Source: Oidiodendron maius Zn (lineage: Eukaryota; Ascomycota; Leotiomycetes; Myxotrichaceae). Taken from it: a DNA stretch of 64,000 nucleotides. The stretch is taken from positions 840,081-904,080 of the forward strand of contig KN832888.1 in the NCBI GenBank assembly GCA_000827325.1, read 5' to 3'. The notes beneath the pieces are model-generated. The model made no database searches. It was not told where the DNA came from and worked only from the letters and a program-made list of their open reading frames with translations. Shown piece by piece: positions 368 to 55,401 of the stretch. Position numbers and translations under genes: made by a program. Positions within the stretch are counted from its first letter, which is position 1; every line of letters begins with the position of its first letter.

Positions 368-1166
368 GATCTACATGAAAATATAGAATAGAACACGCAA
401 CTGTGCTCGGAGGAATCCCAGATGAATTGATCACCATTTACCCTTGATCGGATCATACGTGAAAGTTCACTTGGACTAGCTGCTTAGGGGGGATTGTTTT
501 CATATCCTGCCGTTGAAAGGCGTGCTCTTTAATCTAGTAGAAGCCCTGATCGTCCTAAGGGGCTTTTCGTCTGGGGCATTTATCAAAGAGGGCCCATTCA
601 AAATAAAGTGGTATTTAATGTACTCGAAGTAAAGCCCAGTATTGTACAGGCCTTTAGCTGCAATAAAAATGTCCATTATCCTAATGTACATTTACAGGTA
701 CGCTTCTTGCTGTCTGCCCGGTGCTTTCGCGACATTAAGTGCGACGCTCACCTGGCACGAAACTAAATATATGAAATAAAATTCACAATAACGATAGTTA
801 TATTGAGCGGTTAAAGCTAGCCCACAAAAATGAGTTGCCCGCGCAGAACAGAACCAGCCGGACAGCAGCCTAACTTCAAACCAAGGCCCAAAACTAACAA
901 GCGACAACTATCATATATTTCAATCTCCTCAATCCATCATGACCTTGGTAGTTGAATCGAAGAGGGCAAGTCAAGCCGATGACAGCGCACCGTATTGGCG
1001 AGGACAGGTGAGACAGACCACGGTACGATATCGAGTCAACGTACTAGCTGGAAGAGAAGTTGTCGTCATAAATCGAAATGAAAACCAAATACTGAGACCA
1101 ATGAGTGTAGTGGGGAGCCAGCAAGTACTTGCGCACTCTTAGCCACATAGTCCGGACTATGTGGGT
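368..1166. other. Intergenic, no supported gene
   Basis: Short open frames occur on both strands, but none has a recognisable domain or convincing splice structure. The right end holds the 22-bp palindrome listed separately. Confidence 0.5.
1143..1164. repeat. Perfect 22-bp palindrome
   Basis: The arm CCACATAGTCC is followed directly by its exact reverse complement GGACTATGTGG with no spacer. It lies 2 bases beyond the stop codon of the short minus-strand ORF, so it would sit at the start of that gene's 3' UTR. A spacer-free palindrome folds poorly as RNA. It could instead be a binding site for a dimeric protein, since the centre TCCGGA contains the CCG/CGG half-sites liked by Zn2Cys6 factors; that role is inference. 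Confidence 0.8.
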
Positions 1167-1304
1167 TTACTGCACAACGCAGCCGTTCTCGATGCCCTGG
1201 CGGGCGGGGTTGCGGATGGCGCTGTTCTGCTGGATGGCGCAGCCATTCTCGATACTGCCCTTCTTGTCCTGCTTGGTCTGAGTTGTGACTGTGCGTTCAG
1301 GCAT
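1167..1304 (-). CDS. 45-residue peptide with two CAAX-like repeats; candidate lipopeptide pheromone precursor
   Basis: The frame runs from ATG at 1304 to TAA at 1167-1169 and encodes 45 residues. It contains an eight-residue unit twice, exactly 20 residues apart: IENGCAIQ (18-25) and IENGCVVQ (38-45). The second copy is the extreme C-terminus, so the protein ends in CVVQ, a good CAAX prenylation box (Cys, two aliphatics, Gln). The first copy is an internal CAAX-like box. The N-terminus (MPERTVTTQTKQDKK) is polar, without a signal peptide, and includes a KK pair. The ATG context is CACAATGCC, preceded by a CA-rich leader and a CT-rich tract near 1400-1440 on the coding strand, typical of well-expressed fungal genes. 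Repeated GC-aliphatic-aliphatic-X boxes recall the hybrid (h-type) pheromone precursors known from Trichoderma/Hypocrea, and a single terminal box recalls a-factor-type precursors. The ORF is well supported; the pheromone role is inference. Confidence 0.55.
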   Translation of the reverse strand: MPERTVTTQTKQDKKGSIENGCAIQQNSAIRNPARQGIENGCVVQ

Positions 1305-2403
1305 TGTGATAGCTTGGTCCTTTGCGAATATAAGGATCAGTTTGTTTTGGATATGTGTTGATGAGTTTGTGAGATTGCTTATGTTGCCTCTGGTCAGACG
1401 TCAAATTCAGTTCGATCAAGCAAGGGAGAAATGAAAAGAGCCCAGGCATAGAAGAGAAGTGTTCTTATAGCACCGCGGGGGTTTCCATACGCAAGGATCA
1501 AAGGGTCCAGAACTATCGAGAGAAATGTACGTGGGTAGTTTCTCCTCCGAACTCCAATTATCTGATGGCATGGCCCGGGCGATGGCCCATGAACCCCTCC
1601 TTGCATCCCCAGAGATACTAGAACCAGGTATATAGAGAAGTTGTGTCTGTTGGGAAAGTCAAGGGTTGTCGCCGTCGTCGCGAGATTCGGTTTGCCACAA
1701 ATCAGGGGGCTCGGTTGCTGTTTGCCGAGCTCGCGAAGCTTAGTATTGTCTGCGCCTACTATTGTTCTTAAGCCGCCCCTTCACTTCCATCACGGATCGA
1801 CTAGCAGAAGTGCAAATTTAGGATAGTCGGATCGTTATCTGAGGCTCGATATCGTCATGCTGGTGCACGAGGCATGATCTTGCTGCAAGGGGTGAATTCC
1901 AGGGGGGGTATCTTTAAAAACGTCTGGGCTGTGTGATGCTTCAAGCCTCGTCCATTCACAGTTCTCAAAATCCTTCTTAGATGCCGTGTAAGGATATCAT
2001 CCAGGCCCCAGAATATAGTTCAAGCCCTTCTAGCATTCCTGGTCATCTCGATGTAGCTTCGCAGGATTGATAAGCTCTTTAGAACGCTGGTCAGGTACAG
2101 GTCCCATTCTTACACGTAGCGAAGTATCTTTTCGTGTGAAGGGAAACTGCAGGGGCAATAGTTGTGGACTTTCTCTTTGTATGGGTGGATGGAAGAATTG
2201 CAACGCCTCTAGCACCGCGAGTATATGAATTGTAACTTGATTTGGTTTGAAAAGTAAAGATCAGGATATCCCTCTTACATGCCTGTATGTACCTAATGCC
2301 CGCGAAACTAAACGCCAGGTATCAAATTCCACCGTTCGCCATATATAGAGTAATCCACCGGATTCCGAGTCATCGGTTTGGATAATAATATTAATTTTCT
2401 CTT
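1305..2403. other. Intergenic; upstream region of the short CAAX ORF
   Basis: On the minus strand it carries a CA-rich leader next to the ATG, a CT-rich stretch around 1400-1440 and a TATATA box-like sequence near 1630. No other coding frame is convincing. Confidence 0.4.
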
Positions 2404-28004: not shown

Positions 28005-28918
28005 CTAATCCCTTATCGCGTGATCTCTTGCCCAAGCCTGGATCTTCTCAAAGTTTTTACATATATGTGTTGTCTGCGCATTAGCAATGGTCTTCTGTCT
28101 TGCTGTATCCCACTGCCAATAGATGGTACTGATATCCACAGAGCACATCAGAGATTGCCTGATGGAATCCACACAATGCTCTACGAATCCGTTAGGACTA
28201 CCATCAAATGGGGCATTTTGGACATCAAGAAGCAGACCTGTATGATCAATTGCCAGTGTCAAGTTTACACCAGTCAGATTGTCGAAGATGCGATAACGGT
28301 CTGGATATAATATCTTACGAAGATGGTTAAGACAGTGTAGTTGGTGGAAAACGTCAAGTCCAATCACATAGCCATTATCATCTCCCGGTATCCGAGTAGT
28401 GCGATTTAGCAACTGTACAGCCATTTCATCATCGATTTGACTGAGTCCAATGTCTAATATAGACTCGGCTCGATTGCATTGAGGCCAAATCCAGCCACCG
28501 AGGCCATACCGTCGTACAGGGCTTCCCAGCCGCGTCTACTTCATCATCAGTTGGCTCTTGATATGGAGTTCGGTCGCTACCGAAATTGGAATGAAAGACT
28601 TCTATTTTATACTCAACAGCATCTCGTGCAGGCGTTGTAGAGCAGGATTAGCTTAGAGAAATAACCGCTTGAAGGGCTGCCATCACAGTATATGTACGGC
28701 AATTCCGGCCCTTTCTGTAAAGATGCACGATACTGAATGGTACTTAGCATAAGAGAGATGGCCAGCAAACACGATGTGCCTATTCCGAGAGCCTTCCACC
28801 TCGTTGGAGACTTCGGCATGGAAGGTTGAGCCACACAATCCGTATAGCCCTCACGGCCATCATGGCTGCCTAGCAGTTTGTCTGCGACCACCTCGTCGTA
28901 TTGCCTTCGAGACGGCAT
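28005..28918 (-). pseudogene. UstYa-like (DUF3328) oxidase gene with a one-base frameshift
   Basis: The reconstructed exons are 28918-28687, 28622-28510 and 28453-28005 (introns GTGATG..GAG and GTATGG..TAG). The sum is 794 nt, one base short of a whole number of codons. An N-terminal cytoplasmic part precedes one membrane segment (LGIGTSCLLAISLMLS). The lumenal domain reads AVEYKIEVFHSNFGSDRTPY, then TDDEVDAA, then (next frame) WEALYDDIGLS and onward. It includes the two DUF3328 hallmarks HQLHCLNHLRK and VEHCVDSIRQSLMC. Family members such as UstYa/UstYb and CctR-type proteins catalyse oxidative cyclisation or halogenation in peptide natural-product pathways. The missing base lies in GCGGCTGGG near 28530, between codons for Ala and the conserved Trp. 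All other splice joins are clean, so this is a recent pseudogene or a sequence error. No precursor peptide gene is visible nearby. Confidence 0.7.
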
Positions 28919-52400: not shown

Positions 52401-53931
52401 AGTTCTCCACCCCCAGGATCACGGCCAACGGCTATGCCAAGACTTCAGGAGTGAGTGTCTGACGGTCAAGACGAAATTGATGCCTTCTCTCTGCAGAAGC
52501 CAGGAGAGCGTTCAGGTCGCTTAGAGATGACCATTCTGCTCCTTGCCTGACTCCTCGTTCGCCCCGCCGACGACCCCGCCTGGTGAAATCTCGGATCGAT
52601 CCTCTCCCTGCCAATAGTGTCCAGCAAAGAAGGGCATCTATTCGAGCGGACAAGGCGCCCACACGGCAGGCGGCAGTGTGTATTCAGGTCTGGATCTCCA
52701 CCGTCCCAGGAGAGGATGGCAAGTCCCAGCGCCTCCCAGTGGCCATGTGCCCAGAAAAGCGCCTTTGGAGAACTCACACATGCTGAAGATCGCGATACTA
52801 CTTGTATCAAGACGGCCCAAGTCGCAATCTCCCCTGCAGCGGTCCCGCGGGTTTTGGGTCCCTCCTGACCAGTTAACTGTCTAAGGTCCTGCCGCAGTGA
52901 CATCCGCTGCCACCGGCCTGGTCAATACAGTACTTTTGTCCCGTTCTCCACTTGCAGACAATTTTACCCGTGGGTTCACTCGCGACGGCATCCAACCAAC
53001 AGCGTGGATAGCTGCCAGGCCCGGCCCGGGGGTGCTACCGTTTGCTGCTGCCTCTGCTTCCAGGGAAGCATTACTGAGAGTGGCGGTACGTACTCGTACC
53101 CTACCAGGAGAGTCCACCCTACCGGGTCCCCTCCACGCTAGAAACCCCACAAACGGCCTTTCCCAATTACACATCTAATGCGACCGTGATTCGTCTGCTT
53201 CGTCTATTGCATAAGGAGCCAGGACGGCCGGTCATGGGAAAGCGCTGGAGACGCGTCGAGCATGGAGGTGGACTTCCAGCCCTTCAGCCGTCTAGCTGAA
53301 ATCGGAGTGGCTGACTTCGAAGTGGCTGCTGGAGTATGTGGCCCCATCAGCCCAGTCTCCTCGTTTGCCAACATGCCAGGCATGTGAGTGCCCATGTCTG
53401 GACCGACTAGGACTAGAATCGAAAGAAAGGGCCGTGATCTGCAGGATTCCCCTGCTCTCATGAAAGATCTGAGGCCCAACCTTTCTCCTCATCACGGAGC
53501 ATTTACACTTTTCAATAGACCCTTCTGAGGCTCTAGTTCCCAGTCGATATTGTCTCATACTCCGACGATCTCCTGATGCTGGGAACAGTTGGGGTAACCG
53601 TGGACATGGGATGTAGATATCGGACTTCTGCATAAACATCGCCACCCTCCAACTTGGCCAGTTCTCAATCTCCAGCAAGAACCGGCCACCCGGTCTACCT
53701 GCTTTTGATATTGAAGAGGCGCCTGGCTCTTGCTAATAGCCTTCATTCTCCTCGACTTTCACACGTCTTGGTCGTCGAGTCGACTTCTTTCTGTCGAATT
53801 CACCTCATTCCTTTCCAACCTGTTGTCTCTTGACAATTCCTCCTCGCTCTCTCCTAGACGACAATAAGTGCGAACGGCATTCGCGCATCATCACCTCCTT
53901 TCAATCTCCAACCCTGCAAAGGAACTTCAAG
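49446..53931. other. Long gene-free region upstream of the GPCR gene
   Basis: About 4.5 kb. From roughly 51100 to 53750 both strands are poor in stop codons (for example 52466-52903 minus, 52171-52524 plus), but the translations are Pro/Arg/Ser-rich shadows without domains. The last 200 bases (53740-53880) are CT-rich and look like the core promoter and leader of the GPCR gene. Confidence 0.45.
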
Positions 53932-55401
53932 ATGACGCCAGAAGACCTTACTTCCAGCCAACTCCACACCATCTCCGTGATTGAGCGACTATGTTCAACT
54001 CTGTCCCTATTGGGATGTACTTTCATTGCTGTCACTTTCTTGGGCTCGACATCCTTCCGCAAGCCCATCAACCGGCTGGTCTTCTACGCTTGTTTCGGGA
54101 ATGTGTTCACAAATGTGGCCACCCTGATTGCCAGATCTGCTATTCCCCATCAACTTTCCTTTCTATGCCAGTTCCAAGCCTTCTTGATTCAGATGTGCGT
54201 CGTCAACCTCTCTTCTTCACTCTCGCTGACCCTTGACGCAGGTTTATGCCAGCAGATGCATGCTGGGCTTTTGCAATGGCCCTGAACATCTGGCTCACTT
54301 TCTACCGAAAGTATGATGCGGAACGTATTCGACGACTGGAGGTCGTCTACATCTTGGCGTGTTACGGCATTCCGTTTGTCCCGGCCTTTGTCTACGTGTG
54401 GGTCAAGACGGAAGCCAAGGGTCGATTGTACGGCAACGCCGTTTCCTGGTGCTGGGTGTCTAGTGAATGGGACCTCTTGAGGCTTGTGACTTTCTACGTG
54501 CCGGTCTGGTGAGACGAATCAATTCCCCCCAGCGTTGTCTTGCTAATTTTCCAGGGTGATAATTGGACTCACAATGGCAATCTATGTCCGTGCTGGAGGG
54601 GATATCTACTCAAACAGAAAGCGGCTACTGAAGATGAGCAACGAGTATACAACAAGCCATATCTCAACTATGGATAATCCATTCCACGCTAGCAAGACTA
54701 CAGAAATCTCCTTCGTATCCGAGGCCTTGGACAAGAATGCCGAGACTGGCATGTTCGACATAGGAATGCCAGGTAACCAGGTCTCCAAACCATCGCCGGT
54801 GGCCAAGACTCCGTACTCTGTTACTGTTTCAACTGGCCCGAACCCGAACACCCAGTTGGATATCGAGAATGCAGTTCCAAGTGACCATCCCAAGGCGGAT
54901 AATTTCGAACTGTCGCCAACCGTTCGCTTTCCGGACCCCGATGGCCAGCGACCAGTCCCGATGCAAGGGCATCGTGCTGCGACTCAATCCGACAATGCAA
55001 ACTGGGCATATGCTAAGGTTGCTGTCCTCTTCTTCGTCGCGCTGATGGTGACCTGGATCCCGTCATCAGCCAACCGAGTATATTCTTATGTCCACCCGGG
55101 CGAGCTCTCCCTTGGCCTTGAATTCGCTTCTGCCTTCGTCCTTCCCCTTCAGGGCTTCTGGAATGGTCTCATTTATGCCACGACCAGTATTCCAGCCTGC
55201 AAGTCTTTCTGGAGAGAACTCAGAGGGCGCAAGGTATTCACCACCAAACCCCTTCGGCGAGTCAGCACCAACTTCCCTCCTAACAATGAAACTCTACGCG
55301 GACCTCCCAGCAGCCGTGGTGGCATGTTCACCGAGATCGATAGTCTTACCACAAATGAGAGCCGACCTAATTCTAAGGACTCCAAATCTAGCCCCATTTA
55401 A
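53932..55401 (+). CDS. cAMP-receptor-like G-protein-coupled receptor, 458 residues
   Basis: Exons 53932-54194, 54242-54508 and 54555-55401 total 1377 nt; introns of 47 and 46 nt are GT..AG. Seven hydrophobic helices are visible. Five are before the third intracellular loop: LCSTLSLLGCTFIAVTFLG, INRLVFYACFGNVFTNVATL, MFMPADACWAFAMALNIWLT, VVYILACYGIPFVPAFVYVW and VTFYVPVWVIIGLTMAIYV. Two follow a long loop: AKVAVLFFVALMVTWIPSSA and LEFASAFVLPLQGFWNGLIY. The pattern matches the fungal Git3/CRL family related to Dictyostelium cAMP receptors, plasma-membrane sensors that act through G-alpha to cAMP signalling. The loop of about 130 residues and the Ser-rich C-terminus are likely phosphorylated. 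The ligand is unknown. Confidence 0.88.

Follow-up and report, generated by a model that had tools for sequence, protein, structure and literature searches.

Does an open reading frame (ORF) of 45 codons, carrying two similar CAAX-type boxes, encode a mating pheromone precursor? This question is raised by the minus strand at positions 1304 to 1167 of a 64,000-nucleotide stretch of fungal contig KN832888.1 (positions 840,081 to 904,080), hereafter referred to as the window, which corresponds to C19:840081-904080 of the searched genome (45.9 Mb, 58 contigs). An earlier note, made from the letters of this DNA, had claimed a 45-codon frame in which IENGCAIQ and IENGCVVQ stand 20 residues apart, with the second forming a terminal CAAX box, and this description proved exact. 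We propose, with a probability of roughly 0.6, that the ORF is a real, apparently intronless gene for a lineage-specific a-factor-type (farnesylated) precursor of the multi-box kind seen in Trichoderma, Fusarium, Verticillium, and Ceratocystidaceae. The support consists of gene structure, codon signal, the double box, a STE3 receptor, the MAT1-1 locus, and a-factor searches in the same genome.

The protein encoded by the minus strand from 1304 to 1167 is MPERTVTTQTKQDKKGSIENGCAIQQNSAIRNPARQGIENGCVVQ, which is read in 45 codons from ATG to TAA. The ORF and its parts are as follows.

1167..1304, minus strand: CAAX-box ORF of 45 residues, proposed two-box a-factor-type pheromone precursor (ORF reading, codon and chance tests)
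1230..1253, minus strand: IENGCAIQ, the internal box, residues 18-25 (sequence)
1170..1193, minus strand: IENGCVVQ, the C-terminal box, residues 38-45, with the CAAX motif CVVQ abutting the stop codon (sequence)
1212..1223, minus strand: SAIR, residues 28-31, between the boxes, in an 18-nt direct repeat (72%) with the internal box (repeat comparison)
1260..1265, minus strand: dibasic KK, residues 14-15, a possible processing site ahead of the first box (sequence and inference)

The two IENGC-aliphatic-aliphatic-Q boxes are offset by 20 residues from start to start and are identical at six of eight residues, and CVVQ is followed directly by TAA. Their 24-nt copies differ at five bases, which were read by eye as three synonymous and two conservative (A/V and I/V) changes. 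Because the differences are synonymous or conservative and the aliphatic positions are kept, this pattern is as expected for a duplicated box that is maintained at the protein level. More speculatively, SAIR could be a decayed third box in which Cys was replaced by Ser. Ahead of the second box there is only a single Arg (residue 35), in contrast to the KK before the first. The N-terminus, MPERTVTTQTKQDKK, appears by eye to be hydrophilic and Thr-rich, and a hydrophobic N-terminal stretch or leader was absent on inspection. No second copy of the ORF was found in its own genome by a C-terminal pattern search or by a protein search restricted to that genome (E ≤ 10), and searches of Pfam and PDB with the 45-residue sequence gave no match.

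The double box of this ORF is beyond chance. Double-box ORFs were defined as ATG ORFs of 15-110 residues having a CAAX-like end and an upstream 8-mer that matches the terminal 8-mer in the Cys and in at least five residues. Under this definition, there is one such ORF among the 701 short ATG ORFs of the window, none among 1517 ORFs elsewhere in the genome (14 other 10-kb stretches, 140 kb), and none in 60 simulated Markov-2 windows of 64 kb (mean of 867 ORFs each). CAAX-like ends by themselves are common, as 11 of the 701 window ORFs have one and a simulated window contains 7.4.

Codon usage also points to a coding sequence. The codon adaptation of the ORF (0.91) is the same as that of Hsp90 in the window, and among the 216 window ORFs of 35-60 residues it ranks first by codon adaptation and second when scored as log-odds relative to intergenic DNA nearby. 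A larger reference set, made up of exon ORFs taken from stop to stop and possibly including some non-coding ends, gives a codon adaptation of 0.928 compared to 0.794 ± 0.027 for random synonymous recodings, and 0 of 20,000 recodings scored as high. The ORF ranks first of 600 ORFs of 35-60 residues by this measure (window plus 14 loci), and 5 of 166 coding windows of equal length reach its value. The codon score is 0.915, 0.946, and 0.913 in successive thirds of the ORF and 0.836 in the in-frame stretch upstream of the ATG, where the reading frame stays open for a further 32 codons (77 in all). A GTRNGT donor occurs neither in the 496 bases upstream nor inside the ORF. Since the codon score rises at the ATG and the donor is absent, these data support an intronless gene that begins at this ATG. 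The start context is TATCACA/ATGCC, and we take TATCACAATGCC to resemble the consensus of filamentous fungi. The ORF is thus probably a real, apparently intronless, and well-translated gene.

The host genome encodes parts of a mating system. The STE3 receptor family is represented by two adjacent exon-like stretches on contig C2, taken as one gene, and a MAT1-1-1 alpha-box gene is located on C1 (locus C1:2540001-2560000). Two ORFs lie on one side of MAT1-1-1, one with an endonuclease domain (APN2-like) and one resembling an HMG box, the latter with 24.3 bits, just below the Pfam cut-off of 25.4, and the other side harbors a gene with ANTH and I/LWEQ domains (SLA2-like). A further ORF, located between MAT1-1-1 and the HMG-like one, has no Pfam match and may be MAT1-1-2. 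Names such as TAF5 (see below), APN2, SLA2, and MAT1-1-2 rest only in part on Pfam domains. We infer that the host is a filamentous ascomycete of mating type MAT1-1, with Sordariomycetes as the probable class.

In fungi such as Neurospora and Fusarium, an a-type gene lies beside cyanate lyase and EBP2 (PMC3068285). In the genome analyzed here, EBP2 and one cyanate lyase gene are ~25 kb apart on C3, and the 45-residue ORF is on C19. The cyanate lyase family has three matches in the genome (C3:1932063, C21:154211, and C5:1488676). There is no convincing CAAX gene in the 40 kb around EBP2 and cyanate lyase, where a first scan identified three CAAX ORFs, all unconvincing, and a looser scan of the same 40 kb identified seven ORFs ending in C-x-x-X and two in-frame motif matches, none of them convincing. 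The 10-kb stretches at the two other cyanate lyase genes contained two unconvincing ORFs at one gene and none at the other.

A genome-wide scan for Met-ending boxes used the patterns C-[V/I/T/A/M]-[V/I/M]-M and C-[N/S]-[V/I/M]-M, each followed by a stop-like codon. It covered only uninterrupted boxes with Met as the last residue and with Ser encoded as AGY. The two patterns matched 81 and 30 times, respectively, compared to 43 and 26 times for reversed-pattern controls, and after discarding 20 of the 111 matches that ended in TGG, the remaining 91 were all read. ATG ORFs of at least 15 residues were present at 18 sites, none of which is a convincing conventional a-factor, and several of which look like the ends of larger proteins, some of them Ras-like. 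One of the 18, the 25-residue ORF MSLSKPASPLTYCNIKSSPAYCTVM (C10, ~1717875-1717952, minus strand), ends in AYCTVM and is located between two larger open frames. It has the poorest codon score of all 18 (0.736), whereas the 45-residue window ORF scores 0.925 on the same scale, and MSLSKPASPLTYCNIKSSPAYCTVM is a weak rival candidate for the a-factor. A 28-residue ORF at C19:732818-733082 (minus strand) ends in SGGCCAVM with a codon score of 0.873, and could be the last exon of a gene or a further small protein that is prenylated.

If the 45-residue ORF follows known a-factor biology, its terminal Cys42 would be farnesylated, VVQ would be removed, and the new C-terminus would then be methylated. 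The N-terminal part would be cut away and the lipopeptide exported, and partners of the opposite mating type would recognize it through their STE3-type receptor. As each box is preceded by a basic residue, two 7-residue lipopeptides, GSIENGC and QGIENGC, are possible as mature products, given an extra cut after the first box (contexts KK/GSIENGC and PAR/QGIENGC). Cleavage between boxes has been proposed for rhodotorucine A and for hybrid-type (h-type) precursors, and here it would release a second, near-identical peptide from the internal box. Without a cut after the first box, the terminal box alone would be used and the internal box would be a relic. Schmoll et al. (2010) suggested cutting between the boxes of the h-type by analogy to rhodotorucine A, and mutants of the Kex2 site were still fertile (PMC3068285). 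It is conceivable, although we regard this scenario as tentative and rather unlikely, that a relocated gene replaced the ancestral a-factor, which would fit the lack of a convincing CAAX gene near EBP2 and cyanate lyase; the replacement would have brought a new Gln-ending motif, IENGC[AV][IV]Q, along with a decaying SAIR box, and would supply both GSIENGC and QGIENGC.

Two further features flank the ORF.

1305..1474, minus strand: putative promoter and 5′ leader, with TATAA at -165, start context CACAATGCC, and no GTRNGT donor (sequence and inference)
1143..1164, no strand assigned: palindrome CCACATAGTCCGGACTATGTGG, perfect over 22 bp and located next to the ORF on its 3′ side, which as RNA would form a 9-bp hairpin in the putative 3′ untranslated region

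Even with three mismatches allowed, the palindrome occurs only once in the window, and it could be a hairpin of the 3′ untranslated region or a protein-binding site. RNA folding of the hairpin region gave a z-score of -1.91 (8 of 200 shuffles equally good), and folding of the ORF together with the hairpin gave -0.23 (80 of 200). To the left of the ORF are TAF5-like, Med11, Vps5, and bL31m ORFs, and to the right are ORFs without a Pfam match followed by Hsp90 and a gene with a histone-chaperone domain. Yeast chains head the PDB matches of this Hsp90. The flanks are annotated only in part, with some stretches scanned for CAAX ORFs alone. Elsewhere in the window, an ORF with a UstYa domain is located at 28005-28535, and UstYa-type enzymes occur in fungal gene clusters for peptide natural products. 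Two ORFs at 53740-55401, which have no Pfam match, appear by eye to be parts of a seven-helix cAMP-receptor-like receptor. The ORF at 30669-31070 matches ComA, phosphosulfolactate synthase, in a fungus, and ComA is known as an archaeal coenzyme M enzyme.

Several observations weigh against a pheromone precursor. The ORF lacks Gly-Tyr and has Asn-Gly-Cys in its place, and the combination of IENGC with X = Q has no match among the a-factor motifs in the published passages compared here. The criteria applied to Ceratocystidaceae precursors include a hydrophobic N-terminus (PMC13037118), whereas that of the ORF is hydrophilic. The neighbors named in the partly annotated flanks differ from the a-factor neighbors given in the published passages compared here. 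The motif AACAAT, described for the a-factor promoter of Verticillium (PMC11077750), occurs once in 1.1 kb, at -462, which by our own estimate is about the chance level and uninformative. On C10, MSLSKPASPLTYCNIKSSPAYCTVM resembles conventional a-factors in its size, Ser/Pro-rich start, and YCTVM end. Finally, two degenerate alpha-factor patterns gave 2 and 13 isolated matches and no tandem array, and this negative result is weak as 8 of the 15 loci were translated in a fixed frame, which is the wrong strand for reverse matches.

The coding evidence would fit equally well a real small farnesylated product without a role in mating, such as a membrane-anchored micropeptide or lipopeptide, in which the internal box would be an unprenylated by-product of duplication. 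CAAX ends with X = Q are also known on farnesylated proteins other than pheromones, and the missing Gly-Tyr and the distance from the EBP2-cyanate lyase locus agree with this alternative. On the other hand, short precursors that lack a leader and repeat their box are characteristic of multi-box pheromones, and no convincing other a-factor was found near EBP2 and cyanate lyase or among the Met-ending boxes scanned, and we give this alternative an appreciable but minor chance. It is improbable that the a-factor is instead another gene, for example MSLSKPASPLTYCNIKSSPAYCTVM or a gene with a non-Met X or an intron, with the window ORF as an additional gene of the CAAX type. The conventional features of MSLSKPASPLTYCNIKSSPAYCTVM and the limits of the genome scan (uninterrupted C-[V/I/T/A/M/N/S]-[V/I/M]-M ends, Ser as AGY) leave room for this, but the codon score of MSLSKPASPLTYCNIKSSPAYCTVM is the lowest of 18.

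The short length of the ORF and the frame that remains open for 32 codons upstream are compatible with a chance ORF or the terminal exon of a longer gene, with the boxes arising by accident when a short piece of DNA was duplicated. This is very improbable, as codon bias goes up at the ATG, no upstream GTRNGT donor is present, the start context is favorable, and neither 20,000 recodings nor the simulations reproduced the codon score or the double box. The UstYa-domain ORF in the window raises the further idea of a precursor for a UstYa-linked ribosomal cyclic peptide, with the repeats as core peptides, but that ORF is 27 kb away, no signal peptide is visible by eye, there are no Kex2-spaced repeats, and UstYa-linked precursors are not known to need an exact terminal CAAX box, which leaves this idea barely credible.

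If the 45-residue ORF is a multi-box a-factor-type precursor, it represents a new motif and a new location for such precursors, offers a testable pair of lipopeptides, and bears on how internal CAAX boxes are processed. No component of fungal mating systems is harder to locate than the a-factor gene, as strict conservation is limited to the CAAX end. The present case suggests that a repeated box combined with codon adaptation may single out one candidate among hundreds of short ORFs, with no relative needed.

Among known systems, the rhodotorucine A precursors are from a basidiomycete and have more copies and short spacers in comparison to the 45-residue ORF. In Rhodosporidium toruloides, these precursors contain tandem copies with CAAX-like spacers, which yield several mature peptides per precursor (via PMC3068285). 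The single-box a-factors of Sordariomycetes and Leotiomycetes resemble the ORF in having fewer than 100 residues, a Ser/Thr-rich start, and a terminal CAAX, and differ in their one box, which in Leotiomycetes mostly ends in Met, and often in a Gly-Tyr before it (PMC10569646). Gly-Tyr precedes the box in 87 of at least 111 Leotiomycete a-factor candidates and also occurs in Sordariomycetes (PMC10569646). A text search for the exact peptide returned, among the papers listed, only the loose term IENGC in unrelated work, which is no clean negative, and a literature search on pheromones of Colletotrichum, Diaporthe, and Xylaria yielded nothing relevant among the matches listed.

The h-type precursors (HPP1 of Trichoderma reesei and Fusarium relatives) share with the ORF a short precursor, a repeated G-C-x-x-x box of which one copy is a terminal CAAX, and possible basic processing sites, and Kex2-type dibasic sites are not present in every published h-type (PMC3068285). 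A strict h-type precursor has three copies of [LI]GC[TS]VM and lies near cyanate lyase and EBP2, whereas the ORF has two copies of IENGC[AV][IV]Q that are 20 residues apart and is on C19 rather than C3 (PMC3068285). The Trichoderma h-type locus is near sec23 and 14-3-3 (PMC3068285), neither of which was among the five left-flank and five window ORFs scanned, although no search was aimed at them. The ORF is not h-type in the strict sense and is filed as a probable multi-box a-factor precursor. Of the earlier idea of a hybrid-type precursor, the architecture of a lipopeptide pheromone precursor is supported (short, without a hydrophobic leader, with a repeated box and a terminal CAAX), and the strict assignment falls with the copy number and motif.

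The earlier view that the sequence stands apart from known kinds finds no support in that form, as multi-box precursors, some with two copies, have been published in Huntiella and other Ceratocystidaceae, and one with five repeats in Verticillium. VdPpg2 of Verticillium dahliae is likewise leaderless (66 residues), with repeats, a terminal CaaX, and internal CaaX-like motifs, and differs in having five 11-residue repeats, a likeness drawn from its description and not from its sequence (PMC11077750). The a-factors of Huntiella and Ceratocystidaceae have one to five copies, some of them two, with lineage-specific motifs and mature peptides of 7-10 residues (PMC10182648, PMC13037118). Their loci include laccase-1 and tubulin alpha, and these a-factors differ from the ORF in the motifs given in the passages compared here (PMC10182648, PMC13037118). 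In the present genome a single copy of the gene was found. In common with the Ceratocystidaceae precursors, the ORF has a terminal CaaX/CpaX, a box of its own after each repeat (CAIQ and CVVQ), similar repeats within the protein (6 of 8 residues), and no signal peptide by inspection (PMC13037118). The ORF is therefore a probable member of the broad multi-box kind of a-factor precursor, with a motif that differs from the published ones compared here.
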